Of a stretch of DNA of 64,000 bases, positions 895 to 24,611 are shown one piece after another (position 1 is the stretch's first letter; each line of letters starts with the position of its first letter). The DNA lies in NCBI GenBank assembly GCA_009829735.1, contig CM020620.1, positions 27,622,951-27,686,950 of the forward strand, in the 5' to 3' direction. The stretch is from Pyropia yezoensis. Its lineage: Eukaryota > Rhodophyta > Bangiophyceae > Bangiales > Bangiaceae. The notes beneath the pieces were generated by a model. It was given only the letters and a program-made list of their open reading frames with translations, had not been told where the DNA came from and searched no databases. Both the position numbers and the translations under genes were made by a program.

Positions 895-1258
895 TGTAGC
901 ACAATAGGAATTTCGTCGCACGTCCACTCTCAGGGAACACTCACCAAGGGGGATCGGCACCAACGTCACCGGGAGGCCAAGGTTGCTGTCCTTGGAGCGC
1001 AAGCCACGGGACCAAGATGGGAGCCCAAATGGGAGGGGTTTGTTGTTCTGCCTTGGCCGGCGGTGGATTCACCGCCGGCCCCCTCGTTATAAACCCTCGG
1101 AGACACTACTAACTACCCTCCACCCCAAGATGCAAAGTCCCTCTGGTCATACGTAACTTATAGATACCGTGACCAGCTCGGACTCTCAAATTGAAGTTAA
1201 GGATGAGAAGTAGCCCCCCTGATATTAGGGTCACAATACGGACAACCATATTGCTACA
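895..1258 (-). repeat. Element 1 3' LTR (left copy)
   Basis: 364 bp with TGTAGCA/TGCTACA ends. It contains a perfect hairpin at 1055-1080 (11-bp arms, loop GATT), directly upstream of a plus-strand TATAAA at 1088-1093. The minus-strand TATA stretch of the other LTR is altered here. Confidence 0.95.
1088..1093 (+). promoter_or_regulatory. TATA box pointing at the antisense ORF
   Basis: TATAAA on the plus strand inside the left LTR, conserved in the right LTR at 11603-11608. Its direction is opposite to gag-pol. From this position it would start a transcript reaching the plus-strand ORF at 1846. The promoter role is inferred. Confidence 0.45.
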
Positions 1259-1270
1259 TATCCCCCCCTT
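1259..1270 (-). other. Polypurine tract of Element 1
   Basis: On the minus strand AAGGGGGGGATA abuts the 3' LTR, the expected place for the plus-strand primer of reverse transcription. Confidence 0.7.
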
Positions 1271-1845
1271 AGATTCGGCCCGTCCTCGGGTCGAGTTGCA
1301 TTTGGGTTACCGAATGTAAGTGGGTCGCGTGACCGTTTACCAGTCGGGTGGGGCTTTGCGCCCTGTCGCGACAGACACCCCTTTTCGAGGTTGTCTGAGG
1401 GGGGTGCCCCCCTTTGTGTGGTACACACACGATCCGTTTTCCGGACCGTTAAATTCCCGATTCGGGTTTCTGTTCACGACCCCCCCTTTTCGAGGGGTGG
1501 TGCAAGCGGATCCGCCACCAGGTGTCTGGTGGTAGGGGAGCCCCTCTCGTGTTACCGAGTGAATGGGGGCGGCCGCTCCCGCTTTTCGCGGGAGCGGTTT
1601 CGGGGTGAACCCCTCTTGGTTGCCCCGTACGGGGGTGTGGCCCCGTCCCGCCCAGGTGCCTGGGTGGAGCGCGTTTGTAGCCCTGTGGGGCGCGGGTCGA
1701 CCCGCGTGCCTGCGGCGCTTCTCGTGGCTGTTTGTGGTCAAAAGCGCGGGTGCCCGCGCTTCCCTGGCTCGTCCCGGTTGTCCCACCGTACCGGGTCGTA
1801 GCCATCGACGGCTTGTGGGCGCGGGGGACTCTGCCACCCGTTATC

Positions 1846-4377
1846 ATGTCCTATCCCCAGGTGCTTGGGGAGGAGGAAGTCCTCCTGATCGGGGAGGAGA
1901 TGGAGGACGACGCGCCTGTCGGTCCTGCCGCCGCGCGTTACGGGGCGAGCTCGTCTGAAGACGACGAGCCTGCGGTGTCCGTCCGTCTGTCGGCCGGAGG
2001 GCTGTCGTCCGTGTGCAGCGGCACGACGGTGCCGTCGGTCGGGGGTCAACCCGGCGGTCAACCGCGCGTGGCGGCTTCTAACCCTTCTCTGCCGGCTGCC
2101 CGGATGGAGCCTGGTGCCGGTGCCGGCTCGCCGCAGCTACCCCAAGATGGCCCGCCCTACGGCGGAAGTGGCGATCCCCGGCCGACTCCGGCTGGGCAAG
2201 GTGGTCCGGGAGTCAGGACGGTGCATCCTCCACGCGACCCCGACGTTGACGCGGGTGGTGGTGGTGGCGCGACACCCGGGGTGGCCGGTCAAGACGGTGC
2301 GGGTGCCCGCACGGCTGGTGCTCAGGCTCCCGAGGCTGTCCAAGTGCCTCCCCCTTCCGAGGCGGGGGCGACGTCGACGGGTGGTGCCGGCGCTGGTACC
2401 CTACCCGCGGTGCCGCGGGCGTCGAGCGGTCAAGACGCTCCTTCCCCCATGGCGGTTGACACCGGGAGCTACTCCGGGCGGGTGCCCGCCCTACTTCTTC
2501 CTCCTCGTCCCCGTGCTCCCGCGCCGGTGCACCTACCCGTTGGGCTTCCGCCGGCGCCGGCGCTTCTTCCTGGGCCGGCCCGGGTTGCCCCGTTGGGTGG
2601 CCGCGTTGGCTTGGTCGGTGGCGGCGTCGCCTCTGCGGTTGGCGGTACCGCCTCCGCGAGAGGCGGCGACGCCTCTACGGTGGGACATCCCCCGTTGTCG
2701 GTCTCCGAGCTGGTGGCCCGGGTGCGCAGCTTGACCGTGCAAGAGCCCATGGATTCGGGCGGTCGGATGCGGGTGGACTTTCACCCGTCGGATCGCCGCG
2801 GAGGTACCTCCCGTCCGGTCCCGTTGGACCCCTGTTGGGAGCGGGAGTTGGCTCGGCTGGTTGCCCAGCCTGACGCGGTTCGCGCCGAGCATCATTGGAT
2901 ACTCAGCCAGCCGGACGACCGGCATGCTCAACTCTGGCGCGCCCGGGTCGGGCGGCCTGAGGCTGCCCTCCTCCCCGCCTTTGGGGTGTGCGACTTGGTT
3001 GCCCCCGCGCTGCCGCGGGAGGTGGATTACCCTGCGGGTGCCCGCGGGGTGGCTGCTACCCAGCCCCCTGTGGCCTTCGGGCAGCTCGTGCCTGGTACCA
3101 ACCGGTATCCCGGTTTGGATTACTACCCGGGGGATCCCCCGTATCTGTGGCTGACGCCGCCCTTCCCGACCATGGGTGGCCTGAAGTCGGCGTCCAGCTG
3201 GCGTCGAAACCATGGTGTCATGGCGGACCCATTCCGCACGGATGTAACGTGCGCGTTGCAGACCGGTAACGGTCGTGCGCCCATATACACTCTGTTGCGC
3301 CCGCCTGGGTGGCAAAAGGGGTGGGAGCCCGCCCCGGCTTTCCGGTTTGACACCGGTCCTTGCCTGCGCTACTTCAGCAGTGTGCTGGCCGCTCGGCCCA
3401 CGCATGTGCTGCAGGGTGTCTTCACCCTCGAGGTTACCCTCGGGCAGGTTTCTTCCTTCCTGTTGTCGGCCCGCCGACAGGGCCGGCTCTTCCATCTTCC
3501 GACGGGTGCCCGTCGGCACCTTGGGGAGCTAGGCGTTACCGCCATTGATACTGGGACGGGGTTAACCCGTGAGCTGACTGCGCTCGTGGCCGTTCACGAT
3601 GCCGTGAACTGGTCGGCGGTGGCGACCTTGCCGCCGTTCCGCGACGCGCAACCGGGAACGCTCCCGTTGCCTCGTCACTCGCTACGTATCCGCCGAGTTT
3701 TCTCGGGTGAGGATGGATACCAGGGGTGGGCATCCACCGAGTCGGTACCCGGTCTGGGTATTCCCGTGGTCCTGCCCGACCCTCTCCAGGTGGGAACCCC
3801 CTGGTTCGGTAAACCGACTCCTATGGGGACGGGTCGCCGTCGCCGTGAGTGGGACTCCACTGGTGGGGGCCGCGAGACGTATCGTCGTCGTGGGGAGTTC
3901 GACCAGGTTCCCGGTGCGCGTTCTGCCCAGGAGTCTGGTCCTCCTTCACGGTCGTACCGTGCTCCTTACCAGCTACCGCCGCCTCCGGCGGTGGCGGTGT
4001 CCACTCCTCCGGCTGTAGCTCCGGTTCCTCCCGTGGCATCGCCGGCTCCCGTCATGCCCGACGGGGGTCCTCGCTTGTGGTATGAGGGCGTTAACGCCCT
4101 TCTCTCTCGTGAGTTGACGGAGGCGCCTCCGGTTAGCTGGGGGGACATCCCCCCAGCTGCTGCGCTGGTCGGTACCGCGCGTTGCCTCGGTTGGGTGCTC
4201 AACCGCCTACAGGTGGCTCTGGATGCTGTGGAGGCTGGTGACAGCACTCTGGTGCATCTTAGCGCTGAGGTAGCTCAGGCGCTCAACCGGCGTGAGATAG
4301 CCGACCGTTGGAGTACGGAAGTGTACGCGACGACGCGTGACTGGCCCCCTTCTGCTGGCGGGGGTAACCCCTTCTGA
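1846..4377 (+). CDS. Antisense ORF of Element 1 (unknown function)
   Basis: An 843-residue open frame on the strand opposite to gag-pol, located between pol and the 3' LTR. I chose the Met at 1846 because the following sequence (M-x2-P, then an acidic E-M-E-D patch) resembles the start of the counterpart in Element 2; an earlier in-frame Met lies at 1732. The first third is Gly/Pro/Ala-rich and looks disordered. A structured middle block (about 2860-3780) contains RRQGRLFHLP, matching QRRGMLWHLP in Element 2. An Arg-rich, Pro-rich stretch follows, then a helical C-terminus. No catalytic motif or membrane segment was seen. I do not recognise the family. A DNA- or RNA-binding accessory protein is possible but inferred. 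The frame is intact although pol is broken. Confidence 0.75.
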   Translation: MSYPQVLGEEEVLLIGEEMEDDAPVGPAAARYGASSSEDDEPAVSVRLSAGGLSSVCSGTTVPSVGGQPGGQPRVAASNPSLPAARMEPGAGAGSPQLPQDGPPYGGSGDPRPTPAGQGGPGVRTVHPPRDPDVDAGGGGGATPGVAGQDGAGARTAGAQAPEAVQVPPPSEAGATSTGGAGAGTLPAVPRASSGQDAPSPMAVDTGSYSGRVPALLLPPRPRAPAPVHLPVGLPPAPALLPGPARVAPLGGRVGLVGGGVASAVGGTASARGGDASTVGHPPLSVSELVARVRSLTVQEPMDSGGRMRVDFHPSDRRGGTSRPVPLDPCWERELARLVAQPDAVRAEHHWILSQPDDRHAQLWRARVGRPEAALLPAFGVCDLVAPALPREVDYPAGARGVAATQPPVAFGQLVPGTNRYPGLDYYPGDPPYLWLTPPFPTMGGLKSASSWRRNHGVMADPFRTDVTCALQTGNGRAPIYTLLRPPGWQKGWEPAPAFRFDTGPCLRYFSSVLAARPTHVLQGVFTLEVTLGQVSSFLLSARRQGRLFHLPTGARRHLGELGVTAIDTGTGLTRELTALVAVHDAVNWSAVATLPPFRDAQPGTLPLPRHSLRIRRVFSGEDGYQGWASTESVPGLGIPVVLPDPLQVGTPWFGKPTPMGTGRRRREWDSTGGGRETYRRRGEFDQVPGARSAQESGPPSRSYRAPYQLPPPPAVAVSTPPAVAPVPPVASPAPVMPDGGPRLWYEGVNALLSRELTEAPPVSWGDIPPAAALVGTARCLGWVLNRLQVALDAVEAGDSTLVHLSAEVAQALNRREIADRWSTEVYATTRDWPPSAGGGNPF

Positions 4378-4827
4378 TGGTTGTGGGAGTGAGAGTGAGG
4401 GACCCGGTGACCCTTACGGTGGCCGGGTCTTAGTGAGTATAGACTCATCCCCTTTGGGGGCATTGCTTGCCTCTGTTTGCTGCCCTGGGGAGTACCCCTT
4501 CTGGCTCAGTGGTGCCTTGCCTCCCGTCCAACTTCTTCCGGTTGGTTCATGCTTGGGGAGGTCATCCTCCCTCACTTTGTGTCTTGGCTTGGGGAGGTCA
4601 TCCTCCTTTGTAAGCCCCCTAGTTACTTCGATAGTATCGGAGTTAGCCTCTACCTTTAAGTTAACTTATTAAGGTTCAGGTTTTACTTAGTTACCTAAGC
4701 TTGGCTGGTCTTAGAAACCCAAGTCCGATTTGACTTAGAAACCTAAGTCTGCCATAACCATGTCACACCCTACTTAGTAGGTCTAAGCCCCACCCCCCAA
4801 CATCCGAAGTCGGTGTCGGTTAGGTTG
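4378..4827. other. Spacer between convergent antisense ORF and pol
   Basis: Holds a 20-nt direct repeat, GCTTGGGGAGGTCATCCTCC, at 4551-4570 and 4587-4606; each copy can itself fold into a hairpin. T-rich sequence and CTTAG/CTAAG hairpins follow at about 4670-4790. It may contain the 3' ends of both transcripts (inference). Confidence 0.5.
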
Positions 4828-7800
4828 TTACAGGAGGCGGCGTCGCCTCATGTACGGCATGAGTAGTTGGCGGGGTATATTCGCCGCCTGTTCCCAGGTG
4901 GGTGAGTCGTAACCGACCCACATTACCTTGACGTACCAGGGTTCTGGTAGGTCTGGGTCGGTATGTCCGACGATGCTCTCCACTTGGTACGGGATTCCAT
5001 CCGGTCCCACCGGGTCTTCCGACCGGTGGGTGGTAAGCGCCTCATGTAGCAACCCAGCCGGTACCGGCTGAGGATGTTCTGGCTTTGGCGCTGGTGTGAC
5101 ATCGTTAAAACTGATGCGTTGTATCTCCGTATCGGAGTGGAGGATAACCGAGTGGTCATCTCTGTGGAGCATCTGGTACGGTCCCTTGACCGGTTGCATG
5201 AGCTTGTTCCCTCGGAACTTCTGGTGTCTGATATAGACCCAGTCGCCTGTCATCAGGGTAGCGTTGCGCACCCGTAGTCGGGCGTCGAAGTTCTTCTTGT
5301 ATCGAAGTTGTGTTCTGTCAAGGGCACCCTTGAGCTTAGGAATCATCCACGATAGCTTGGCCAACCAAGCTAGGTGGATGCGTTCGGCCGGTCGGCCCTT
5401 AGGTGTATCATACCGAGTGCACCTGCCGGGTGGCAGCGTCAGGTTACCGACCCCTAGTGGCATGACTCACTCCAGTGGGGCGATGTTTGTGCTCCGATGT
5501 GGCCTGGCATTGCATGCCAGGGTGAGTACGGACAGAAGCCTGTCCCAAGTGTTCGTGTGCTCGGCCACGTAGCACTGTAGCATCTTAACGATGGTGCGGT
5601 TAAACCGCTCCACTTGCCCGTTGGTTTGCGGGTGGTAGTCGGATGCCCGACGTGGTTCGATGCCGAACATGCCCATGACCTTAGTGCAGAATGCAGACGT
5701 CAGGTTTGCTCCGTTGTCGGAGAGGAGTTGCTTCATGACTCCGTATGCACTGATCCAGTGGTCAACCACTGCGTTCATGATGGTATATGCCGTATCATTC
5801 GGGATGGCTGCCGCTCGTGACAGCTTAGTAAATCGGTCTGACATGACTAGGATGTACCTGTTCCCTTCTTCCGTTACCGGAAGTGGCCCGAGTATGTCGA
5901 TAGCGACCTGCTCGTTGGGCCCATCAGGTGGGAACAGTTTTATGGCAGACGCCTGCCTATGTAGACTCATGCGGTTACGTGCACAGAGGTGGCATCCCCT
6001 TACGTGGTCGACCACGTCGACGGCCATTGCTGGCCAGTAGAAGAACCTTCGCATTGCTGCGAACATACGTGAACCCCCCGGGTGTCCGGCTGTAGGGTTC
6101 TCGTGTTCTCGTTCCATGACGGCTTGCCGTAAGGACACGGGAACCACGACTTGATGTCGTCCATCGGCGGGTGCCCGCCGGTATATGAGTCCGTCTTCAT
6201 TCTCGGAGAAGATGCCGGCCGTACCGGCCAGGAGGCTGGCGCGATGGCGTCTACAGTCGTCGTCATTGGCTTGTGCCTCGCGGAAGTCCGCGAGAGTCAG
6301 TGGGCATGCTCGGTGTGCCATGGTATGGTCAACCATACCTTGGGTGGCGTTACCCACCAGGCAGACCGGTACCACCGGGATGTCCTCGTCCACCGGGCGG
6401 GTATCCCCGCTCGGGGTGTCGAGTCGAGACAGCGCGTCTCCGAGGTGGTGGGTTTACCCAGCCTTATACACGGTGCGGTAGTCGTGCTCGGCCATCTTCA
6501 GCCTCCATCGGGCTAGCCTCCCATGGCTATCGGAATCCTTGTCACCAAGGTTGAGGAGCCATCGTAGGGGTTCGTGGTCGGACCTCGCGATGAACCTAGA
6601 GCCCTCCAGGTATGGGCGGAGCAGTTGCACTGCCCATATAACCCCGAGGCACTCACGCTCGGTGGCACTATAGTTACGCTCAGCCGGGTTGAGTGTCCGG
6701 CTGAAGTACCCTACCGGACGTAGGTCCGGGATAACGTTATCGGAACCGATCAACGTCTCTCGCTGTAACAGGGTGCATCCCACTTGTGTATCGCATGCAT
6801 CGACATCGATGACGAAAGTACCCCGTCTGTGCGGTAACGCAAGGACGGGTGGGGATAGTAGGGCTCGCTTCAGCGACTCGAATGCCTCCTCTTCGCTAGG
6901 CGAAGGGGGTTGGAGTACCTTGGGCAAGGCACTGCTCGTAAGAACCGTTAACGGTTTAGCTATCCGAGCGAAGTCCTTGACGAACCGTCGGTATACGTTG
7001 CACATTCCCAGGAAGCTCTTGAGCTGCGTCTGGGTGTTAGGGAACCGGGCATCCCGGAGTGCCCGGGTATTGGCTTCGAGTACCCCTAGTTTACCAGGGG
7101 TTATCTGGTGGCCCAGATACTCGACCGTCTGTTGGAAGAAGGCGCACTTCTTCAGACGCAGGGTTACCCCAGCGTTCCGCAAGAGGGTGAGTACCTCGTC
7201 AACATGTTGCACATGGTCATCCATGTTACGCGAGAAGACGATGACGTCATGGAGGTACACTAGGCAGTTATGCCACTTCACCCCCGACAGTATAATGTCG
7301 ATAGCCCGCTGGAATGTAGCGGGGGCGTTGGACAATCCGAAGGGCATCCTTAGGAGCTCGTACACTCCACTGTGACAGACGAACGCCGTCTTGGGGATAT
7401 CCTCGTCCGCCACTGGGATCTGCCAGTATCCGGCATTGCAGTCGATGGTGGTAAACACCGTAGCCTCCCCTAGGGAGTCGATGCATTCATCCATCCTAGG
7501 TAAAGGGTATGAGTCTTTCTTGGTAACCAAGTTGAGGCGTCGATAATCGATGCAAAACCGAGGGTTTGATCCTTCTTCGGTACGATAACGACTGGGGCAC
7601 CCCACTCCGACATCGAAGGTTGCATCACCTTCGCTTCGCTCATCCTCTTCACTCCTCCATCAACGATCTCTCGTTGCATAGGTCCCGCTCGGTGCGGTTG
7701 TGACCGGGCGGGGCGTGCGCCTGGTACCAGGTCTATACGATGTTGGGTTGCCCCAATGGTACCCAAGGCCCCGCCTGTCCACATGACGTCATGCTTTCTT

Positions 7801-8993
7801 AGCATCCGTCGTACCCCTTCGGCTACCGAAGGGGGAAGGTGGTCGAGGTCAGCCTCGGCCAGGGCCTTCAGTGCTTCTTGGTCCTTTGCCGGCATGTCCG
7901 CCGAAGGCGCCGATGGGTTAGGCTTCCCGTCATCGGGTTGCTGTCGCTCGGTGGTCTCGGCGACCGCCAGCACCTCAAGTGGTTCCACTTGACCTTCCTT
8001 GTCAGAGGTAAGGATATCTCCTTCGTATAGCTCGGCAATCCCGAGGATAGTTCCCTTCGGGAGGGTGACTGCCTTACGGCGATAGTTCGCCATCACTAGG
8101 AGGGGCGACCCTCCTGCTGGGAGGTCTATGAGACCGTTGGCCATGGTCAACCCATGGCGCTTGTACGTCCGCAGGTTGGACCGGACTCTGCAGATGCCTG
8201 CGAGGTCGCAGTTAACCGGGAGGACTGTCTCCGACAACGGCTCAAAGCGAGATCGCTTGGCCAACCGAAGTGTCTTCGGCTCGACGCTTGCGTACACCTC
8301 AGCCACGTTAACGTGGCTCCCTTGTAGCGTCAGGTCCCTGACGATAGCCGTATGTCTTCGCTTCGTCCCGTCGGCTTCTTGAAGCTCGACGGTCCTCCGG
8401 CCTGGCCGGATTGCATCCACGTGAACGTTGATGAAGGTGCATCCCAGTATGCAGGGCACCGATAGGGTCTCACACACCAGGAAGTTGACTTCCGTGGTGA
8501 GTTCCCCGATGGTAACCCGCAGCGACATCGCTGCGGTCGTACGAATGAGGCGACCATTCGCGTCCTTGATGGTGGGTCCCCGAGTCACTCTGACTCGCGG
8601 AAGCCACTTGTCCGGGAGGGTATCCTTCCAGATAAGGTTGTGTCCAGCCCCTGTATCCAGTACAGGGTAGTACGATCGTGTCGACTGGGGGTCAACCCCC
8701 AGTGTGGCTGATACCTTGAAGTTCTCCAAGGTAAACAGCACATGTCCTACACCGATATCCGGTGTTCCTCGGGCATCCTGGACAGAGCCCTTGGCTGGTT
8801 CAACGTGACGGGGCATCCCGTCCTCGCCTCCCGTTATCGGGGGATTCTCATCATTCCCCTGACTCCGTGTCGTCGGGGCCGGAAGGTGTACCCGGGGATT
8901 GATGCGGCGCCGGCTCAAACGCGCTCGCCGTGGGGCTTTCCCCGCGGTACTCCGGGGTGGCTTGCTTGGGTTACCCCAGCGCCCCCCGGTCAT
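4828..8993 (-). pseudogene. pol: Element 1 pol (protease-RT-RNase H-integrase-chromodomain), damaged
   Basis: In minus-strand order: aspartic protease with D-T-G-A near 8660; reverse transcriptase around 7600-6950; RNase H around 6850-6440; integrase with an HHCC finger (about 6120-5990) and D, D, E residues near 5905, 5720 and 5620; C-terminal chromodomain (about 5000-4830). Damage: a one-base frameshift at about 7565-7575, in-frame TAA at 6454-6456, and in-frame TGA at 5467-5469. The RT catalytic box reads Y-L-H-D (7257-7246) where the family has Y-L-D-D, so the enzyme should be inactive even without the breaks. Pol lies in the -1 frame relative to gag, and its first Met is 8 nt beyond the gag stop. 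Confidence 0.93.
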
Positions 8994-9001
8994 CCTTCCT
9001 C

Positions 9002-11191
9002 TTACTCGTTTCCCGCCCTTGGTAGGGTGCTGTCCGCCGGGACATCCGGCTGAGGAGGTGCCTCCTCGACGGCCAGTACTCCACCTGGAGCTGGCTGCCT
9101 ACCCGGTGCGGGTCCGGGTGCTCTGGCGGGATACCCCCCGGTGGATGCCTTGCGTTGCGCCGCTGCCCGCCGAGACTCCTCGGGGATGAGTGGGCATGAA
9201 GACACCCAGTGCTGGGAATCCCCACACAACATACATCCGGACGTGCCGGTCCCCCCTTGAGTTCGCATCGGGGTAGCCCCGTAGCTGCGGTTGCCTCCCT
9301 CGGGCGCCCGAGTGCCTGCTCCCTGGTAGGCCTTGGGTCCTTGGGTCAACCGGAACATGGACTCCTTCAACCGGTTGGGTCGGCCTGCAATCTGCGGGGG
9401 TGCCTCCGTGCGCACCGCCCATGTTGGCAAGGGTTGGTGAGGGTTACCCGTCACCGGGGAGTACCCCGTAGTCCGTACGTACGGGACGCGACGTCCCGTG
9501 CCCTCGCTGACCTGGAACTGGGTCCCCGCCGGAGCGATGTACGCTACCGTACCTTGCTCATCAATCACCGGCGTAGCCGGTAACAGCAGGTGGCCCTGCT
9601 GGTCAACCAGTGGTTCCTCCTCGCCCGTGGGGGCGTAATCGGTAGCCACCAGTACCGGAACGGCCTTCCGTTCCATCTTGTCTTGCCTCGGTACCGGGGT
9701 AAGATTGAGCTTGCTCCCCTCACCCTTGGGCTTTGAGGCAAGAGCACACTCCGGGTGAAGCACCCGGTAGGCGACCCCCAGGGACTTGCACATATGCATC
9801 AGTCGACTGAAGTTCGTCCGTGCCGTGTTGGCGCCCCGTGCGGATATCCGCACGTAGTTCGGTACTCCTGCGAACAAGATGGCCCGTAGCTCCCCTTCTC
9901 CGAGGAGCTTCCCCAGCTCGTAGTCGAGCTCTTGAATCCGTCGTCCGAACATCCCCTCATCCTCCCAGCTCTGGGCGGTGGCAGTGCGCAGGGCCCGGTA
10001 GTGGTCCTCGCACTTGTCCTCACTGAGGTAACTGCTCAGCAGCTCCTTGAGAATCCCACGGTAATCCATGGGGGTGGCCGCGACCCTCATTCCCGGCATC
10101 GGGGATGCCTGGCGAAGAATGCCTCGCACCTGTTCATCCACAAAGAACGGGAGGATCTCCAGGGCCAGCCCCTCGTTAACAAGGGCCTTGTCCGCGGCGG
10201 CCTTGAAGTTAGTCAAGAAGCCGATGACTGCCAACGGGCGTCCGTTCGGCCCCCCGAACATAGGGACTCCCTTCATAAGGGTCTGCATAGATCGGATCGC
10301 CCGATGCGACGTATTACGCATCGATTCCGATTCGGTGGTAGAGAGGTCCTCCAAACGATAACGTTCCGGAGTAAGAACCGACCTGACGACCTCGTTGACG
10401 ATCTCCGTGTCAGCGTCCTGGATATCCAGTCGCTTAGCCAGTTGATGAGAAAACTCATCGGACTCCATCCGCTTCAGTAGGCTCGCAGTTACCTGCGCGG
10501 TCATAGCTCCCACCACTGAAGATGGTACTTCAGGCGTTGGCACCTCGGGAACCCGAGTTGCTTGGCCTCCTTCGTCGTGGGGATACTGTGAGAGGGTACC
10601 CCCTCCCCCAATAACCGACTCTCCACCGGCGTTGGTATCCGCCGGGTCGTGTCCGCCGAGTCGGCTTCGGGTGCACCGAGCGTATCGCTCCGTGTGGCTC
10701 CGTTCCAACTCTGCCGACGAGTCGGATCCATACCCCATTGTGTCCCGGGGCTGTCCGGGAGTTGCTGCGCCGGGGTCGACCCCGGTGGACTCCGAAAGTA
10801 GTCCGGCCGGTTCAAACCGTACCGGTGTGGGAGGGACACGACGGGGTCCCGTCGTGTGGCGTGTTGACATCAACACTGCCAATGCGTCCTCCGTCCGCTC
10901 TTGACGAGCGTCGAGTCCGGAAAACCGGGCCTCGATGCGGGCCAATGATGCCATCAGGAAATCCCCTGGTGAAGGAGGCGGCGGAGTGAGGTCGGTCGAT
11001 GACAGTTGAGGCGGGCCCCCGCCTCCTGCCGTCCGAGCCGTGCCAAACGTCGATTCGGCACCGGAAAGCATTGGCGTCTCAATGTTGTCGATCGGGTTCC
11101 CGATCCCGGTTCCCGTGGTCACCTCCGGAGTCGGCGTCGACGCCGATCCGTCATCTTGAACGTTCCCCGTCTCTTGGGTAGACATAGTCAC
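9002..11191 (-). CDS. gag: Element 1 gag
   Basis: A 729-residue capsid/nucleocapsid polyprotein, the first gene after the PBS. The N-terminal third is low-complexity with an early coiled section. The central capsid-like region (about residues 230-480) is helical. A CCHC zinc knuckle, C-x2-C-x4-H-x4-C (CMLCGDSQHWVSSC), lies about 60 residues from the end. It ends A-G-N-E-stop, the same four residues as gag of Element 2, because the shift heptamer overlaps these codons. The frame is open throughout. Confidence 0.88.
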   Translation of the reverse strand: MTMSTQETGNVQDDGSASTPTPEVTTGTGIGNPIDNIETPMLSGAESTFGTARTAGGGGPPQLSSTDLTPPPPSPGDFLMASLARIEARFSGLDARQERTEDALAVLMSTRHTTGPRRVPPTPVRFEPAGLLSESTGVDPGAATPGQPRDTMGYGSDSSAELERSHTERYARCTRSRLGGHDPADTNAGGESVIGGGGTLSQYPHDEGGQATRVPEVPTPEVPSSVVGAMTAQVTASLLKRMESDEFSHQLAKRLDIQDADTEIVNEVVRSVLTPERYRLEDLSTTESESMRNTSHRAIRSMQTLMKGVPMFGGPNGRPLAVIGFLTNFKAAADKALVNEGLALEILPFFVDEQVRGILRQASPMPGMRVAATPMDYRGILKELLSSYLSEDKCEDHYRALRTATAQSWEDEGMFGRRIQELDYELGKLLGEGELRAILFAGVPNYVRISARGANTARTNFSRLMHMCKSLGVAYRVLHPECALASKPKGEGSKLNLTPVPRQDKMERKAVPVLVATDYAPTGEEEPLVDQQGHLLLPATPVIDEQGTVAYIAPAGTQFQVSEGTGRRVPYVRTTGYSPVTGNPHQPLPTWAVRTEAPPQIAGRPNRLKESMFRLTQGPKAYQGAGTRAPEGGNRSYGATPMRTQGGTGTSGCMLCGDSQHWVSSCPLIPEESRRAAAQRKASTGGYPARAPGPAPGRQPAPGGVLAVEEAPPQPDVPADSTLPRAGNE
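9008..9014 (-). promoter_or_regulatory. Candidate -1 frameshift heptamer, gag/pol of Element 1
   Basis: The minus strand reads G-GGA-AAC in the gag frame, followed by one codon and the gag stop TAA (9004-9002). This fits the X-XXY-YYZ slippery rule, and the -1 frame is open into pol. Exactly the same arrangement occurs in Element 2. Confidence 0.7.
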
Positions 11192-11390
11192 AATCAGTCA
11201 ACCGACGTAACAATCACCACGAATAAGAGAGCGAGGGGGTAGATTGGGGAGAGTAACAGTAGATCACAGTCAAAGGTAAAAACTCAACACAATCGATCAG
11301 GTCGCAACACCACGAGTACAAAAAAAGGACCGGATCCCTATCCGTGTGCCAGGGCCGAAGACGGCGTCACCACAAGGGTGACGGAAACCC

Positions 11391-11409
11391 GTCCCCTGCT
11401 GCTCCACCA
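11391..11409 (-). other. Primer binding site of Element 1
   Basis: TGGTGGAGCAGCAGGGGAC on the minus strand, one base inside the 5' LTR. It starts with TGG as expected for pairing to a tRNA CCA end. It is identical over 19 nt to the PBS of Element 2. It is not the usual initiator-Met PBS, and I cannot name the tRNA. Confidence 0.85.
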
Positions 11410-11410
11410 A

Positions 11411-11773
11411 TGTAGCACAATAGGAATCCGTCGCACGTCCACTCTCAGGGAACACTCACCAAGGGGGATCGGCACCAACGTCACCGGGAGGCCAAGGTTG
11501 CTGTCCTTGGAGCGCAAGCCACGGGACCAAGATGGGAGCCCAAATGGGAGGGGTTTGTTGTTCTGCCTTGGCCGGCGGTGGATTCACCGCCGGCCCCCTC
11601 GTTATAAACCCTCGGAGACACTACTAACTACCCTCCACCCCAAGATGCAAGTCCCTCTGGTCATACGTAACTTATATATACCGTGACCAGTACGGACTCT
11701 CAAATTGAAAGCCAAGGATTAGAAGTAGCCCCCCTAACATTAGGGTCACAATACGGCCAACCATATTGCTACA
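11411..11773 (-). repeat. Element 1 5' LTR (right copy)
   Basis: 363 bp, about 97% identical to the left copy by eye. It carries TATATATAAG on the minus strand at 11671-11680 (gag-pol direction), a plus-strand TATAAA at 11603-11608, and the hairpin at 11570-11595. Confidence 0.95.
11671..11680 (-). promoter_or_regulatory. TATA box for gag-pol transcription
   Basis: TATATATAAG in the minus direction within the 5' LTR. The 3' LTR has a substituted version of the same stretch. Confidence 0.5.
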
Positions 11774-11778
11774 CCCGC

Positions 11779-11955
11779 CCACCGCCGTCATCGTTTCCCT
11801 CCTGTCATTGGTGCCACCTTCCCCTCCCCCATCATCGTCATCGCCACTTTTCGCTCCCCAGCACCGTCATCACAACCCCCTACCGTAGGGCCGTATCCCT
11901 TCCCCGTTGGTCGTCGTCGCCATTTCGCCCCCCTTCACGCGTGATCCGTCGTCAT
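11779..11955 (+). repeat. Dispersed repeat R1, continuation after Element 1
   Basis: Picks up the R1 sequence cut at 889 (CCACCGCCGTC, then a TTTCCCTCCTGTC block). It matches the reverse complement of about 13125-12950 with many substitutions. Confidence 0.6.
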
Positions 11956-12949
11956 CGGCACGCGCTCTGTGTGCTTTACTTGTTCATGGGTATCTCTGTG
12001 TGTTTTACTTGTTCAGTGCCTTCCTGTCCTTTCTCTTCCCAGGCGGGTTTTTCTGGCACGGGAGAGGCGCGGGGCGGCGCCGCTCAGATTGCTTGCCACG
12101 CCGCCACTGCCCCCCGCCTGCAAGCCATTATGCTGTCTAGGACGACCCTCGTCGGCAGCCTGTGAACGCGAGTAGGCAAGAGTAAAGGGCTCGCTCTGCG
12201 ATTCAAGTGCCCACATTTTCCCGCCCTCGCGCGTCACGTCCCGTTTTGTTATGGCATCCGCCATCCCCCCCCCCCCTCTCCATAATCGCCGGTTCTCAAG
12301 CTACTCCTTCACACTGGAATCCTCGGTCGCCGCGCGCTTCTCCCTTGCCTTGGTGGTTCCCCACCAAAGAAGAAAAGCAGTTAAACCGCCCACGACGACT
12401 TCGGTCTGATTGCTTCCAGGGCGACCAACGAGCACGAAGTGCTGGTGTATCGCTTTGACAGTCAGTCGAGAGCTTGCTGGATAAAAGATAAATCGAACAA
12501 GATACACAAGAGCCACAGATGACTCCCTCTGGCACGGGATGAGACGGAACAAGATATCTGGGTCATAATCGAGTGTTTAGTAGGGGATAAGCAAAACCAG
12601 GAAGGACACTGACAGGGTAAAGTCAGCAGCGGGAACGCAACCACGGAGGGAGAGTGCAGCGAGGTCAGACAAAGCAGAGAAACGACAGAAAGTGCTTGGG
12701 ACACTGAGCGGGCCATCACTTGGACAACGCGAGCCGGTACATCAGTACTCAGCGACGTCAGCAAGAGACCAGAAAATGAAAAGGATAGAGCAGCACAAGA
12801 AAGTGGCAGCACAAGCGAAGTGCGGTGCAAAGCAAAAAACAGAGAACGGCGCCAGACGCGGCAGCAGCCACGACGGCGGTGCAGCCACCACGGCGGTGTG
12901 CAGCGGCGGTGGTCGTACGGAAGAAGCGCGGGCATGGACAAAGGCGAAG
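11956..12949. other. No gene recognised
   Basis: Contains a short imperfect direct duplication of TCTGTGTG-TTTTACTTGTTCA at about 11968-12020. The open frames here are Ser/Leu- or Arg-rich without family features. Nothing else was seen. Confidence 0.45.
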
Positions 12950-13335
12950 AGCGGGGGAGACGGGAGGTGGCGACGGCGACGGATCGGAGGGGGTGAATGC
13001 CGGAGACTGACGGGCAAAGGCGGCGTGGCAATGACGACAGATGCCAGGCGTGGGGCGATGGCGACGACCATTATGGGGAAGGGGAAGGTGGCAACAACGA
13101 CAGGAGGGAAATGCTGACGGCGGTGGGCGGGGCAGGGGGGTGGTGACGACGGTGGGGGGGGGGGGGGGAGACGTCGACGGTGGCGGCGGGGGGGGGGGGT
13201 CACGACGACGCTGGCGGCGGGGGGGGCGGGTGACGACGACCGTGGCGGCGGGGGGGGGGTGTGGCCACGGCAGTGGCGGCGGGGGGGGGGGTGTGACCAC
13301 GACTGTGGCGGCGGGGGGGGGGGGAGGGGGCACCG
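12950..13335 (-). repeat. Dispersed repeat R1, inverted second copy
   Basis: On the minus strand this has the same succession of CGTGGTCAC, CGTGGCCAC, GGTCGTCGTCACC, CGTCGACGTC and CCACCGTCGTCACCACC units as 662-889, then the block matching 11779-11955. This copy is not interrupted. Confidence 0.65.
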
Positions 13336-14411
13336 CTAAAGGTCGGTTCCATGCATTAAGGCGCATGAGCATGGCCCTTGTTTGAGCGCGCAGAACTTGG
13401 CAACGGAAAAAGCTTTCCATGATAAGACTGCTGCAAAACGTCGACCACCTCGCGAGCTATTTTCTGACCGAGTTTGAGGCGCGTACGATGGGGGATTATG
13501 GAGGGGTGATTTTTTCTCTCTCTTATTTGTATTGCACGGATGTATTGCTGTTCTCCCAATTTTGGCCGATCCTGACAAGAACAACACTGCATGAACAGCT
13601 GTGTGAGCCAATCGCGTGCTGGCAGGTGAGGGCGAGCCAATCGTGCGCTCTAGGGGCCCGATAGGGCTGAGCAGATGCTTGGCTGCAGCCACATTGGGCC
13701 TCTTATCAATGGCTGATTGGTCGAAACACTGTTGGTCTCTTGGCTGAGATCGCCGAAGATTCCTCCCACATCGGAACGTTCCTCTCCGGAACAGTTGTCC
13801 ACCCTGTCTTTGTGTCTGTTCCACTCGGGTTCTCCCCTCCATGGGCTCGGAAAGTCGCAGATCTTACTGTTTGCACAACCATGGAGGCTGGTTCGGAGCT
13901 CTCATTGGTCAGAGAGGCATCCTGTGAGGCATGTCATTGGTCAGTGGACTCTTGTTCTTGTTATTGTCCGGATCGGCCATAATTGGGAGAACTGCAATAC
14001 AGTACTGCATCAAGAGTGCTTCCTGATGGCGATGCAATCACGGAAACGGCGCGCTCAGGCGATAATATGGGTGGCATATGTGCATGGGTGACACCTGAGC
14101 TGAAGCGCAGGCAGTCTGTGGGTGTGGACAGTGCTGGTGGCCGTCGTATGCTGCTCGTACACGGGATAGAAAAATAGCATTTTCCTCGCCATGCAGTGTC
14201 GCTCAAATCAGAAATTTCATAAGGTGGGCTACTTGTCACCCAGACATTGCTGTGCTGCTGGAAGTGGCGCCTTTTTTGATCCGCGTGCCCGCGCAGACCG
14301 CCTCTCGGCGCAGGAAGTGGCGCCTTTTCTGGTCCGACGTCGACGACTGGCCGACGGCGCTTCTCCCGTGACTCCTGCCACGCTTCCCCTGCCGCCCAAT
14401 TGCTGTAAGCT
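13336..14411. other. Gap with a cluster of CCAAT/ATTGG motifs
   Basis: CCAATCG at 13608 and 13637, and ATTGG at 13716, 13904 and 13936: five motifs in about 340 bp. This could be a former or active promoter. No convincing gene starts next to it other than the transposase relic at 14412. Confidence 0.4.
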
Positions 14412-15126
14412 ATGGATCCCCGAGCTCGGCGTCTTGCTCGTGCGACGGGGCTGGCTGGCCGCGGCGGGACGGGGTCCGCCGCGGCCCGCGCGGGGGCTGC
14501 TGCCTCTCGTGGGCGTCCTGTCGCTGCACGTGTGCGCGCGGTGAGGGAGCTTACGGATGAGGCTGTCACCCTGATTCGGAACGTGCGGCGGTTCTTTGAG
14601 TGGGAGATGTCGGACGCGCGGCGGACCATGCCGCAAAAGCCTGCGGAGCGTACGGCACTCGCGACTGGCGTGAGTCGGCGGACTGTGACGCGAGTGAGTC
14701 AGCCTGGGGCGGTTGAGCGCGCGCGATCTGCTGGGACCCCTGAGCGCCGCCAGTCACGGCTGCGCATTCCGCAGGAGGAGTACGGGCGCGTGCGGGCCTC
14801 CATTTACCAGCAGTATCGCAAAAAGCGGCTCCCAACTCTCGAGAGCACCTTGGAGGTACTGCGCGCGGGCTCTGAGGACGGGAGTGTGCGGGGCTCTGGT
14901 CCGCGAGAGGTGAGCGGGGTTGGCGCGGTGATGGACGAGGGCGGGCCCAGCACGAGAGCTGGCGGTAGGGGAGGGGCGCACGGTGTCGGTGGGGCGGTGG
15001 GGCCCAGTGTCGGTGGAGGGACGGTGGGTGTAGGGCTTGTGCTGGAGGTGGGGCCGCCGACGGCCCGGATACCGACTCGTATGTCTGGACGCGAACGACT
15101 CCCTTCCTCGCCCTGCTGGATCTGGG

Positions 15127-15595
15127 TGTGGCAAAAACCACTTGCACACACGACACCGAAGTTGGGGCGGTGTACAAGGGCTGGCTCACGTGTCGGGGGA
15201 ACCGGAAGAAGTGCAAGTCGCACACACTCTGTCCCTGTTGTGGGGCAAACCCCCCACGGAAAAACAAGAGGATGGTGTGTGGTCCAACAGTTTCTTGGTC
15301 GGGACGGGGACGCAGGGCCAAGCCCCGCTGTCCCTCCCCTTATCCCCCCAGGGTCCCCTCAGAATCTCGCCACTCAGAATCTCCCACCCCAGCACCTGCC
15401 CACCGGGCCACACGAAAATTCAAGACGATAAATGCAGAAAACCCTCAAATCCAAGTTGGATTTACTACTAAGCTAACTATCCCAAACTTAGGGAATATGG
15501 ACCCAAATGCGGGGGGAGGAACGGATCAGGCTAGTGGCCTGCCGCCCCTTGCATGGCACGTGTTGCCCCCCTACCTGGGGGTCAATACTGCCACA
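15127..15595 (-). repeat. Element 2 3' LTR (left copy)
   Basis: 469 bp. It contains a perfect 17-nt palindrome at 15447-15463 centred on CCAAGTTGG. The second palindrome, CCCAAGTTGGG, is kept in the right LTR (24068) but damaged by one base here. Confidence 0.95.
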
Positions 15596-15608
15596 CTCCC
15601 CTCTCCTC
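15596..15608 (-). other. Polypurine tract of Element 2
   Basis: GAGGAGAGGGGAG on the minus strand directly abuts the 3' LTR. Confidence 0.8.
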
Positions 15609-15936
15609 AGTTCCGACCGACCCGGTCGGCCCTGTGAGGGGGTGCGTAAACGCACGTCTCGGCGTTGGGGGCGCGACTTGCTGTCCCCTCCGCTTGAGTA
15701 CGTAACGCGGATGTGGAGGCGGTCACGTTGACCGCCCCTCTCCTCAAGCTTGCCCACTCGGCAGCTTGCTCTTCTCGGTTCACACTTCACCATCACCACC
15801 ACCTCCCCGCCACCTTCCACGGGGCCGCCCCACGCTGGGGAGGCCACCCGTCTACCCACGATCCGAGTCCCCCTCAACTCGAGGCGGGTCTCGGGCCGCT
15901 GTAGCCAGGGCGTCTCTCCCCAACTTGGGGAGAGCC

Positions 15937-17881
15937 ATGGCTACCCCGGGAGTGGAGACAGACTCTCTTGACGAACGTATGGAGGACACCTCCTACGGTG
16001 CAGCGCCCGCCGGGACTTCCGGCGGGGGCTCCGCGATCGCTCCTGGGGATGGGACTCCCGCGTCACCCGGCTTTGGGTTGACGGCGGGATCTCCCCCGGA
16101 GGCGGGACAAGTTGTCCCGCGTGAGGCCTTGGGGCGGTGGTTTTACCCCGCTTGGCCTCTCTGAGGAGGGGTTGACTGTTCTTCGCTGTGGCCGACTTGG
16201 CGCAGCGATGGGTCGGGTATGGGACCGCCTACGGGAGAAGTACCCCCGTAGGGTCGGGTTCCCTGCCGGCTTCAGGACGGACCAGTTTGCCTTCCTGTAC
16301 GACGAGGAGGTCGAAGATGTACAGCGTGCCAAGGCCATCATGGTGGACCGCGGGGGAACTATCCCGGGTCCCGGCGACTTGCCGACCTTTACTTGGGACG
16401 CGGTGGCAACTCGCCCCCCGTACCTTCACGAGGCCGATCCGCACACTCATCACTTTGATGTGCGGATGGAGAAGGACTTCCGGCGAGTTCCCTACTTGGT
16501 GACCTCGGCTCAACTTGAGTTCCCTCAGCAGTCTGCTGCCAGTAAGGAGCAATACTATCCGAAGAAGCCCGAGTGGTGGCCTCAAGTTGAGGTCCCCTAC
16601 GGGCTCCCGGCGTTGCTGCCACGGTTGCTTGACCACTTCGGCTCCGTCATGTTGACGGCTGGCCCTGATCATCTGGTTTGGGCCATGTTGGCCACCCAGT
16701 GGCTCCTCGAGGTCATGTCGACCTGGGTGTCTTGTGTTCAGCGGCGGGGGATGCTCTGGCACCTCCCCCTCCGGCTTATCCAAGGTCTGGAACAGCTCAC
16801 CCCTCAGCTAGTTGCTGAGGGGTGCTCATCAGGACAACTCACTCTACTTGAGGAGATGCTCCGCCTTCACAAGTTTATCGAGTGGGAGAGCATTGAGCAC
16901 AAGTTGCGCCGCCCCACTCGTGGGCCCAAGGACGATGGCGCACTTCGCCAGTTCGTGTGGGTCGCTCGTGAATTTCACGACGGCCGTGTGGTCCTACGCG
17001 AGGGGTTGGGCATCGGGGACTACCCGTATGCCCCGGGAGTGGATCGCCACACTGCGCCACCCCCGGACAAGCCCATAGTTATTGCCGTGCCCTCATATGA
17101 TGACCATATGACTCAACCTACTGCGGGGGCCCCAAGTCGGGGTCGCAGTTACACCCGGGTCCCGCCACCTCGGCGTGCCCCTCCGCTTCCTCCTGTCCCC
17201 TACCAGCCGCACGGGGACATCCCGATTAGCGTGACCGTTGAGTCGTCCACCCCGGTGTCCCCCAACTTGGGGGCCACCCTCCTGACGGTATACCCCAAGT
17301 TGGTGTTACCGCCCACGCCTCAAACCTCAGAGATGATGATCACCACGTTGGTGCGCACCATTTCCTGGTTGGCCGCGTCGACCGCAACCCTTCAAACTTC
17401 CGAGACTCCTCAACTTGAGGAGCGCGTTCGTACTGCAGTGGCGACCGCGAGTTGCGAGTCGGTGGCGGAGTTTATGACGGCCGAGTTGGCTCGCATTGGG
17501 GCAATTATGCCCCAGCCAGCCCCACTTGGGCGTGGCAAACGTCGTGCGAGCCGGGCGTACTCGCCTCCTCGCCGTCGTCGCCGACGCTCGCGGCGCTCTC
17601 CCTCCGTGTCGGAAGACGAGTTGTCTTACTCCGTCTCGGAGTCCTCGACTCCGTCAGAGTCGGAGTCGGTCCGGCGTCTGCGTCGCCAACTTGCGCGCAA
17701 GACCAAGCAGAAGGGTAGCCGCGGTCGTCTCCACTTGCGCGACCGTGAGGGGCGCGACGGGTCCGACTTGGAGCCGCCGCCCCCTCCGACGGGTGGGGAG
17801 CGTTATCGCCGTGGGTCTCGCCGCTCGCCTCTACGTGAGGTCGAGGGCCGTGGGGTTGGAGAGTCTAGCATGCATGCCTAG
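15937..17881 (+). pseudogene. Antisense ORF of Element 2, one frameshift
   Basis: Counterpart of 1846-4377. The first frame opens with ATG at 15937, two bases after a perfect 21-nt palindrome, and stops at 16164. The second frame is open from before 16112 to 17881. The change needed is one base near the TTTT at 16141-16144, most simply an insertion. The body holds QRRGMLWHLP (near 16740-16770), matching RRQGRLFHLP of Element 1, preceded in both by a hydrophobic helical stretch with [F/V]-S-S or S-V-x-L spacing and followed by L-T-x-L and a Trp. The C-terminus is strongly Arg/Ser-rich, like RS domains. Function unknown. Nucleic-acid binding is inferred from the basic tail only. Confidence 0.75.
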
Positions 17882-17992
17882 TTGGCAGCTGCCTTTGTTG
17901 TGAGAGTGTGAGGGTTAGGGCTGTAGTTAAAAGCCACTCTGCGTACCACTTCGACTTGAAGCACTCTCTTGGCACTGTTACTCGGCCTTCCC

Positions 17993-20900
17993 TCACGTTG
18001 AGGGAGGGCTGCTAGGGTCTATCTCATGCCGGGCACAGTATGCCCGGACCTTCTCAGCGGGAAGGTCCTCCACATACTCCCACGTATCATCCTTGGTTTT
18101 GTAGCCAAACCAACGCACCCTCAACATGAGGCGGTCAGTGTCCTCATCCCATCCGTGGTCGATGAACTTATCGAACACGTACTCCTGCGGGCCCTGTTTG
18201 GCCGCAGGCAGTAAGGGGAGGCGCCACGCTTCCAAAGCACGCGCCCAAGCTGGGTCGCCTGCGGGCGGTGGTGCAACTTTGACCACGTCCTGTCCGTTCA
18301 CTGTGCGGACCCCATTGTCACTTTCGATGGTGAAGCGCCGCCCATCAGTACGAAGGACCTGGTACGGCCCCTTCGTCTGGAATACCAACTTACCCCCAGT
18401 TGGGGTGTGTGAGTGAACCAGGACCCAGTCACCCTGCTCGGGGACATGCTTAGCATTGCGCACCTTTTTGTCAAAGGTACGCTTGTAGCGCTTTTGTGCT
18501 TTGTCCATCTCAGCCCTGACTTGAGGGATGAGGTGTTCAAGCCTAGCAGCGAACTCCGCCTTACTCTCAGTAGGAGTAGGCGTACTGCCACCATCCTCCC
18601 TAGTTGGGAGCGACCGCCGCACAGCAATAGACCGCACGCGACGGGGGGTTACAAAAGCGAGGGGTACTTCCCCGGTAGATGAGTGAACCTGCGAATTGTA
18701 GGCAGTAGTAAGAATAGAAATGTATTGGTCCCACGTCTTCACGTGCTCACTCACATAGTGGCGCAGCTGCCGAACAATAGTTTTGTTGAAGCGCTCCACC
18801 TGCCCATTAGTTTGTGGGTGGTAGGGGGTGGCATAGTTTGCCTTAACCCCCAACATGTCCAGCACTCCCTGAAACAGTACAGACGCAAATTGCGGTCCAT
18901 TGTCCGATAGTGTACTATCTGGGATGCCATACGCGGCAACCCAGTGATCTAGGAAGGCTGACACGACCGACATGGCCGTGATCTCTGCCAGTGGGATCGC
19001 TCGCGTAAGTTTCGTGAAGCGGTCACAGATGACCAGGAGGTACTGGTTGCCCTCCTCGGTCACTGGCAGTGGCCCAAGGATGTCCATCGCCGACGCGGCG
19101 AAGGGCTCCTTGTCCGGGAACAATAGCATAGCCGTACTAGGCCGCCGTTCCATCAGACGGTTCTGTGCACAACTTGTGCAGGCAGCCACCCAACTGTAGA
19201 TGTCCACCACCATGGACGGCCAGTAGTACCTGGTCCTCAGGGTCTGGTACAGTTTACTAGACCCCAGGTGTCCACCCGTGGGAGCGTTGTGCTCCCTCTC
19301 AAGGATTCTGCCCTTGAGGGATGCGGGGACGACAAGTTGTTCGGTCCCCTGGAATACCCCCCTCCTCATGAGGAGGCCATCGTCTCCCAGAAAGAACCGC
19401 GTCTCGGCCACTGTATCCAGTGTATCCCTCTGCGACTTGCAGAAGGGATCCTCGGCCTGGGCCTTCACCACCTCGTCCAGGGACAGGGGCACGTACTTAT
19501 TGTTCCCTGGCGCCTCGGGGTTCAGCGCCTGACCCGAGCGCGTGACTACCCCCCCGATGGGGATGTCCTCATCGACTGGTTTAGTGTCCAGCCCCTCGGT
19601 AGGTACCCGAGAGAGGCCGTCGGCAAGGGCATGTTGCCTGCCAGGTCGGTACTCAATATCAAAGTTGAAGGGTGCCAGTTGCACCCTCCACCGATTGAGA
19701 CGAGTGTTCGTACAGTCCGTCTTAAAGATGAACTGCAACGCGCGGTGGTCACAGCGGATGAGGAACTTCTCACCCTCCAGGTAGTGACGAAGTGACGTCA
19801 CCGCCCACACCACTGCGAGTCCTTCCAACTCGGTGACTCCGTAGTTCTTCTCGGCCGAGTTCAGCCCCTTGCTGAAGTATCCCACCGGCAAGTACTCCTT
19901 GTCCGGCTGCTGCTGAAGCAACACACAACCAAGTTGGTTGTAGCTAGCATCCACATCCAGGATGTAGTGGCCTCCCAACCTGGGAATAGCCAGGATAGGG
20001 GGCTTCAGCAGAAGGTCCCGAAGAGTCTCAAAGGATTCCTGCTCCACCCGACTTGGGGGAGGCAGGTTCTTCGGGAGCGTTGAGCTCACTAACTCATTCA
20101 ACGGCTTCGCCACCTTGGCGAAGCCCTTGGTGAAACGTCGGTACACGTTACACATCCCGAGGAAGCTCCTCATCCGGGTCTGGGTCCGGGGGTACTGAGC
20201 CTTACGGATGGCCCTCAAGTTCTTCTCGTTGACGCTGAGACGCCCCGGACGCACAACATGTCCCAAATATTCCACCTCTTGAGTGAAGAGGTGGCACTTA
20301 CTCGCTTTCAGTGACACACCAGCGTCAGCAAGTAGCTTGAACACCTGGCCAAGATGGCCAATGTGTTCCTCCGGACTTCGGGAGAACACAATGATATCGT
20401 CTAGGTACACGAGACAGATCTGCCACCGTACTCCGGCCAGAATCATGTCCATAGCGCGCTGGAAAGTTGCCGGCGCGTTACAAAGGCCAAACGGTAGACG
20501 CTTGCACTGTTAGGTACCACAGTGACAGGTAAAGGTAGTTTTATGCCTGTCTTCCGGGGCAATGGGAATTTGCCAGTACCCCGCGTTACAGTCCAGGGTA
20601 GAGAACACGTTCGCCTCCCCCAGAGAGTCCAGACAGTCGTCCATCCTAGGTAGGGGATACCTGTCCTTCACCGTGCTCTCGTTGAGCTTACGGTAATCGA
20701 TACAGAACCGGGGAGTCCCATCAAATTTAGGGACGATAACCACCGGACTCGCCCACTCGGCGTTGCTGGCCTCGATCACATCGAGGGCCTCCATGCGAGC
20801 AACTTGCTCCTTAACGAGGGCCCTTGAACGGGGTCCTACCCTATACGGTTGTTGGCGTATAGGGGGTGCACCGGGCTTCAACTCGATCCGGTGTTGGGTA

Positions 20901-21976: not shown

Positions 21977-21985
21977 TCGTTTCCC
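21939..21985 (-). promoter_or_regulatory. Candidate -1 frameshift site with pseudoknot, Element 2
   Basis: The heptamer G-GGA-AAC (21985-21979) is in the gag frame, one codon before the gag TGA (21975-21973). Twelve nt beyond it, two 5-bp pairings interleave: GAGCT (21966-21962) with AGCTC (21951-21947), and GCCGT (21960-21956) with ACGGC (21943-21939). The order stem1-stem2-stem1-stem2 is that of an H-type pseudoknot. The spacing is longer than usual, and folding was not computed. Confidence 0.55.
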
Positions 21986-23943: not shown

Positions 23944-24017
23944 GGTCCAAGTCCACCGTTCCTCTGAGACAGAGGGCCCCCTACACCCGGGTGCACCCGG
24001 AGGTAAAGTTTACCTCT

Positions 24018-24036
24018 GTCCCCTGCTGCTCCACCA
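24018..24036 (-). other. Primer binding site of Element 2
   Basis: TGGTGGAGCAGCAGGGGAC on the minus strand, two bases from the LTR; identical to the PBS of Element 1. Confidence 0.85.
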
Positions 24037-24038
24037 AA

Positions 24039-24507: not shown

Positions 24508-24611
24508 CTGGGTTTCACCTTTTCGAAGGGGCCCAACCACTACGACATGGCACGCGAGAAGCCGTCCGTCATCCGCCAGCGGGAGGACTTCATCGACACC
24601 CTGCGGAGGTA

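Follow-up and report, generated by a model that had tools for sequence, protein, structure and literature searches.

Dispersed short hairpins in a Ty3/gypsy-type retrotransposon of Pyropia yezoensis, with evidence for selection on their stems in pol

We analysed a 64,000-nucleotide stretch of the Pyropia yezoensis genome (hereafter the window; contig CM020620.1 of assembly GCA_009829735.1, positions 27,622,951 to 27,686,950 of the forward strand) that contains a Ty3/gypsy-type long terminal repeat (LTR) retrotransposon, E1, at positions 895–11773 of the window, with its gag–pol region on the minus strand. Short stem-loops in E1 exceed the chance expectation by about a hundred, and they are found across its LTR, its antisense open reading frame (ORF), pol and gag. 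In pol, the synonymous variants that have spread among the genomic copies of the element avoid the stems of these hairpins.

Palindromes were counted as non-overlapping perfect inverted repeats with arms of at least 8 bp and loops of 0–5 nucleotides. There are 25 in E1, compared with 1.3 (maximum 4) in 20 dinucleotide shuffles, in agreement with the preliminary description of this DNA, which had noted a palindrome excess in the element. The longest arms, of 11 bp, are at 1055–1080 in the 3′ LTR and 11570–11595 in the second LTR copy (both with loops of 4) and at 4135–4158 (loop 2). Arms of 10 bp are found at 1573–1597 (loop 5) and 10836–10857 (loop 2), and arms of 9 bp at 8301–8318 and 9837–9854 (loop 0), 1742–1761, 8517–8536 and 8684–8703 (loop 2), and 7814–7834 (loop 3). 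The remaining palindromes have arms of 8 bp and loops of 0 (1691–1706, 4085–4100, 5055–5070, 6002–6017, 10770–10785 and 11131–11146), 2 (3499–3516, 6277–6294, 6322–6339, 7975–7992 and 11008–11025), 3 (5503–5521 and 9481–9499) or 4 (5353–5372). Those at 7975–7992, 9481–9499 and 11570–11595 were added by a full scan to the 22 listed earlier. Of that earlier list, 21 are perfect where they had been placed, including one given as 9838–9853 with arms of 8 that extends by a base pair to 9837–9854; the other had been listed one base off, as 1743–1762 instead of 1742–1761.

Host DNA has no such density, as had also been claimed. Four stretches within 29,000–64,000 contain 2, 1, 3 and 3 palindromes against 1.65, 1.05, 3.55 and 2.8 in their shuffles. 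The stretches that contain a second element, E2, have 7 palindromes against 0.5 (11,774–17,900) and 6 against 0.95 (17,900–29,000).

The excess also goes beyond what the encoded proteins and codon usage can account for. We generated codon-preserving shuffles (n = 300) of six coding pieces of E1, four of E2 and two host genes, and counted even stems (five pairs around a free 4-base tip) and odd stems (five pairs around a 5-base tip). The six E1 pieces contain 103 even stems against 14.1 ± 3.5 in the shuffles (maximum 25), and 41 odd stems against 14.9; the two host genes have 6 and 5 stems against 4.3 and 4.3. Even stems number 38 against 4.8 in the antisense ORF (1732–4377, plus strand, 881 amino acids) and, on the minus strand, 14 against 1.6 in the integrase piece (5467–6393, with H2C2 and rve domains), 6 against 1.0 in the piece with the reverse transcriptase and RNase H domain matches (6454–7605), 15 against 2.2 in the protease and N-terminal pol piece (7606–8993) and 23 against 4.0 in gag (9002–11191). 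Single pieces are uneven: the reverse transcriptase piece has no palindromes with arms of 8 and does no more than equal the shuffle maximum at arms of 7, and the antisense ORF equals the shuffle maximum at arms of 8. Two outcomes had been named beforehand as refuting the idea, a count within the range of codon-preserving shuffles and an equal density in host genes; we looked for both and found neither. The stems of E1 are more evenly spaced than random (coefficient of variation 0.70–0.73, p = 0.004–0.007), and the palindromes have no consistent codon phase.

The hairpins have a preferred geometry. Six-pair stems in E1 with loops of 0, 2 and 4 number 24, 31 and 30 (4.1, 2.2 and 2.5 expected), whereas those with loops of 1, 3 and 5 number 5, 13 and 9 (2.6, 4.1 and 2.4 expected). 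Strong stems mostly close on G…C around a 4-base tip (56 of 61), and the tip is mostly N-Y-R-N. The earlier impression that arms differ from site to site was accurate, and that of recurring centres was real in part, in the G…C closure and a middle that is often pyrimidine–purine. The preliminary description had not mentioned the prevalence of even loops in E1 or the odd loops of its neighbour E2.

E2 (15127–24507, minus strand, 5-bp duplication CTGGG) is a Ty3/gypsy element related to E1, and its hairpins are in the other register. Its six-pair stems with loops of 1, 3, 5 and 7 number 18, 11, 13 and 8 (2.0–2.9 expected), compared with 5, 4, 2 and 4 for loops of 0, 2, 4 and 6 (1.7–2.6 expected), and its four coding pieces contain 40 odd stems against 11.9 and 15 even stems against 9.9 in codon-preserving shuffles. 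The tips of 25 strong E2 stems tend towards C-AASTT-G. We considered whether the two elements have palindromes at orthologous sites and rejected this: of the 41 E1 axes that could be mapped to E2 (25 of 66 could not), one lies within 3 nucleotides of an E2 axis, and 1.43 are expected. Because E2 uses another register at other positions, the hairpin format is family-specific. A third family, L099, has 37 six-pair stems in a 2.5-kb piece when loops of up to 14 are counted (9.7 expected), and they show no clear register. The contrast in register between related families, which is the most novel point of this analysis, is based on two families and one partial third. Two further observations concern longer loops. 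Six-pair stems whose loops measure 12–16 are in excess in E2 (15127–24038; 27 against 10.2), and in the family L004 (C2:25005140-25008616) loops of 8 and of 10 are slightly overrepresented (4 stems each), perhaps another register in a further family.

Composition or codon bias can be practically discounted as the source of the hairpins. The G+C content of E1 is indeed high (57–69% in 2-kb bins), but dinucleotide- and codon-preserving shuffles give far lower counts, and the registers differ between two neighbouring elements.

We assessed selection on the stems in an alignment of 38 genomic copies to window positions 4956–9105, the pol part of E1, with L009 and L039 (the window copy itself) excluded; the counts are of sites, not independent events, and several copies are closely related (for example L042–L048). 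At third codon positions, variants found in a single copy, which we infer to be largely post-insertion, are about equally frequent inside and outside the stems (33/112 and 344/1247). By contrast, variants present in at least three copies, which have been carried through replication, occur at 3/112 sites in stems and 262/1247 outside. Arranged by distance from the 43 even axes, shared third-position variants occupy 10/47 sites in tips, 5/158 in stems, 7/46 at offsets 8–9 and 243/1107 farther away. With offsets 8–9 left out of the comparison, stems differ from flanks at a Fisher p of about 1e-10, and none of 1,363 shifted placements is equally low. Shared variants are scarce in the stem but at background level in the tip and flanks, so the constraint falls on the stem itself and spares both tip and surroundings. 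The dip is weaker around the odd axes of E1 (6/70 stem sites with shared variants).

Evidence from outside the pol alignment points in the same direction. In the 3′/antisense-ORF and gag stretches taken together, fixed differences between the window copy and a subfamily occur at 4/131 sites in stems and 102/1180 at offsets of at least 10 (p = 0.013), neither stretch being significant singly. Five relatives of E1, 8–16% divergent and compared in seven alignments, retain 353 of 393 stem pairs unchanged, where 316 would be expected if codon position is ignored; each group of similar loci is represented by one or a few relatives, with nine loci named in advance among those listed. The suggestion in the preliminary description that the hairpins are selected is therefore well supported for E1 pol and has weaker support elsewhere in E1. 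Selection on the pairing and selection on the letters of the arms are not fully separated because mirrored changes are few, but since the arms differ between sites while the tips drift, selection on pairing is the simpler reading.

The same missing variation bears on the alternative that a template-switch process during reverse transcription perfects near-palindromes that have no function. Template switching can create and maintain hairpins, as one study reports (PMC8794818), and hairpins made in this way share with those of E1 their perfect Watson–Crick pairing. However, correction by template switching copies one arm into the other. By our own reasoning, roughly every second single change that is lost should then turn up as a mirrored pair, about as often as one is restored. 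Compensatory changes do exist among homologous copies, but they are few and stem changes are mostly missing: we found two mirrored pairs among the copies (5947/5954 in three copies and 9036/9050 in five), and in the relatives three mirrored pairs, two two-sided changes without pairing and 59 one-sided changes. In some stems, several differences from a relative fall within a single arm, as near 4841 when compared with L025. Among cases of stem gain or loss, which are not independent because homologous copies and both LTRs recur, both changes lie in one arm in 14 of the 21 with two changes (chance 50%), and 2 of the 9 with at least three changes are one-armed, near the chance level of at most 25%. 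The mirrored or one-arm clustered changes predicted by a template-switch process are thus not clearly seen. Template switching may have created some of the palindromes. As the sole explanation it is disfavoured because stem changes are missing rather than mirrored, and we regard it as improbable; purifying selection fits better.

A third possibility, that the palindromes are integration target sites for their own family or for other elements, is very improbable. The tip motifs resemble the symmetric targets of integrases. A weak palindrome preference has been described for plant LTR elements (PMC6911290). Against this, the target duplications are 5 bp long in E1 (8 of 8 insertions with both sides) and in the E2 copy of the window, a length that does not match the even axis of E1, and none of nine empty sites is palindromic around the duplication (the CTGGG of E2 included). 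About eight E1 insertions lie in E2-like DNA; measured against a loose list of 109 E2 axes, the nearest palindrome axis is within 3 nucleotides for one of them, 5–10 nucleotides away for two and at least 27 away for the rest. These three results rule against targeting. Many E1 copies do sit inside E2 copies or their relatives (loci L051-L053, L058, L061-L065, L078); L063/L064 is inserted in an E2 relative within 3 nucleotides of a palindrome axis, and the other nested copies are not.

We propose that the elements carry dispersed, family-specific hairpins that are kept by selection and read by the element's own machinery, a reading that we hold at somewhat short of an even chance. Each E1 hairpin is a Watson–Crick stem of about 5–9 bp whose tip mostly has 4 bases and is closed by G–C. 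While the element replicates, purifying selection acts on the stems, most simply on how they pair, and leaves tips and surroundings alone, as seen in pol and, more weakly, elsewhere in E1; E2 has odd tips near C-AASTT-G at different positions as its own format. The most likely role of the hairpins would be that of sites for recognition or compaction, scattered along the element's own RNA and/or complementary DNA (cDNA), with Gag/nucleocapsid during packaging as the most plausible reader. An extension of this proposal, which we consider possible but on the unlikely side, is that each family has its own hairpin code. Dozens of strictly Watson–Crick-paired hairpins would then have a register (4- or 5-base tips) kept by selection on both strands, as a mark of self-identity by which each family's proteins would select only their own nucleic acid for packaging or processing.

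Several results weigh against this proposal. In six-pair stems counted as for L099, the family L001 has no excess (13 against 10.1) and L004 a modest one (18 against 9.7), E1 has the excess of odd stems given above, and the stem spacing of E2 is not regular. Evidence for selection is also uneven. The antisense-ORF and gag stretches have too few shared variants and show no stem dip at third positions (1/31 in stems against 1/238 at offsets of at least 10; in gag, 1/40 against 5/354). In E2, the stems are not significantly conserved relative to an 89% relative (7/110 against 136/1327, p = 0.12; 11/91 against 149/1362, p = 0.71). Because the tips vary freely at synonymous sites, the tip sequence itself is unlikely to be read. 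A role in RNA should favour G–U wobble pairs, and these are not clearly favoured over other mismatches in stems with a single mismatch. In E1, G–U, A–C and other mismatches number 22, 37 and 94 (9.7, 10.2 and 36.8 expected), which is 2.3-, 3.6- and 2.6-fold over shuffles; in E2 they number 20, 20 and 67 (7.8, 8.6 and 32.5 expected), or 2.6-, 2.3- and 2.1-fold. Finally, the two strands fold about equally, with mean folding z-scores of −1.43 (sense) and −1.20 (antisense) in E1 and −1.52 and −1.57 in E2, which makes a purely sense-RNA role doubtful.

The main rivals to packaging or compaction are generic structure and a function at the DNA level. If the hairpins belonged to a general, genome-scale ordered structure with no cognate reader, kept for overall compactness, for RNA stability or to evade host sensing, low folding energies would be expected along the elements. 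Local folding energy is indeed below that of shuffles in E1, E2 and L099 (mean z-score −1.04 in L099) and much less so in two host stretches (−0.13 and −0.37), a result that also counts for our own proposal. The freely varying tips also suit such a structure. However, the loop register is clear and differs between two related families, and neither the lack of a clear preference for wobble pairs nor the folding of the antisense strand about as well as the sense strand is what ordered RNA would lead one to expect. We consider this explanation unlikely.

The strand symmetry is more readily accommodated if the hairpins act in DNA. The cDNA or the integrated element might adopt hairpins or cruciforms, for example to promote strand transfer and recombination or to bind integrase or the antisense-ORF product, and strict Watson–Crick pairing would make each hairpin available on both strands. 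Since G–U is not clearly favoured, DNA or both strands may matter. One-sided changes, scored on the sense strand in relatives and in copies with at least two carriers, yield 48 A–C and 33 G–T (p = 0.12). About equal folding, together with A–C mispairs at least as frequent as G–U, is unusual for a structure at work only in genomic RNA and accords with hairpins required in DNA or on both strands. The near two-fold symmetry of the tip consensus also speaks for a function in DNA. On the other side, the orientation of asymmetric tips may be strand-biased, with GCAC/ATGT/TTGA in the sense direction in 14 cases and reversed in 1, a count chosen after viewing the table. We know of no protein that reads such sites, which also counts against a DNA-level function, and we judge it quite unlikely. 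It is the strand symmetry and the lack of a clear G–U preference, opposed by tips in one orientation, that keep our confidence in packaging or compaction below an even chance.

The classification of E1 follows from its structure: reverse transcriptase–RNase H precedes integrase, the LTRs are direct repeats of the TG…CA type, and there is a short target duplication, CCCGC, on both sides. The 3′ LTR (895–1258, TGTAGCA…TGCTACA) and the 5′ LTR (11411–11773) are on the minus strand, like the remainder of pol beyond the integrase core, the C-terminal part at 4828–5463. The gag-asp protease match is slightly below the cut-off. Gag resembles that of E2 and has a C-X2-C-X4-H-X4-C knuckle in the alignment, with no Pfam hit. 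In the window copy, pol is interrupted by stops. With the window copy set aside, the family is present in at least 40 places by DNA search (97–98% identity) and at least 107 places by protein search (95–97% identity); because so many copies are this similar, the family is large and young. The product of the antisense ORF has no Pfam domain at E ≤ 1, TRP28 (PF04195) included, and its predicted structure is uninformative (pLDDT 31). Its relatives are three named proteins, all from Pyropia vietnamensis (identity about 50%), and one unnamed. The antisense ORF of E2 (16112–17881, plus strand, 589 amino acids) is weakly similar over 90 residues (pairwise E = 4e-6); it encodes an arginine-rich tract and has one relative, unnamed. 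A search of viral contigs returned nothing related to the E1 reverse transcriptase, and window positions 1–29,000 contain no known RNA families at gathering scores.

Other features of the window can be noted briefly. G/C-rich tandem repeats of about 32 bp at 662–886 and 13126–13323, mutually inverted, lie on either side of E1. The same 15-base stretch stands beside the 5′ LTR in E1 (11395–11409) and E2 (24022–24036), and we take it to be probably the same tRNA primer site in both. An ORF with a DDE_1 endonuclease domain (25054–27114, plus strand) is probably a DNA transposon. An FBPase is also encoded in the window; among its named relatives, the one from Pyropia vietnamensis is the closest (75% identity), and those of other red algae come next.

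The nearest known counterparts of the E1 hairpins are dispersed packaging signals, genome-scale ordered RNA structure (GORS) and the dimerization palindrome of Ty3. A search of the literature, with few subscription journals within its reach, returned no comparable hairpins in an LTR retrotransposon. The Retand elements of plants (PMC11963269) likewise have an antisense ORF, placed between pol and the 3′ LTR; that of E1 differs in having no TRP28 match. Like GORS of RNA viruses, E1 and E2 have folding energies below those of shuffles along the whole element, but their structure is concentrated in very short loops, has a family-specific register and is about equal on both strands. GORS is expected in genomic RNA and not in the complementary strand, a pattern that neither E1 nor E2 shows. 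In yeast Ty3, RNA dimerization involves a short palindrome atop a hairpin, in an element of the same type; there, one site of six examined near the 5′ end is functional (PMC11381356), whereas E1 has dozens of palindromes over its full length. Packaging of Ty3 RNA requires the nucleocapsid domain (PMC4974528). With the dispersed packaging signals of RNA viruses (PMC6281560), E1 has in common many stem-loops scattered beyond chance; it differs in being an LTR retrotransposon with unusually perfect stems, varying tips and sites that are only candidates for binding a coat protein. The G–C closure (56/61) could stand for the shared motif of such signals, yet the tip sites vary at the background rate. 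RNA viruses have been the main setting in which dispersed functional structure is discussed. E1 opens the question to simple counting, since it combines an excess of about a hundred hairpins with many genomic copies and with selection that is visible as a lack of synonymous variation in the stems alone. Should the difference in register between related families follow a cognate protein, it would reveal how an element distinguishes itself from related ones.

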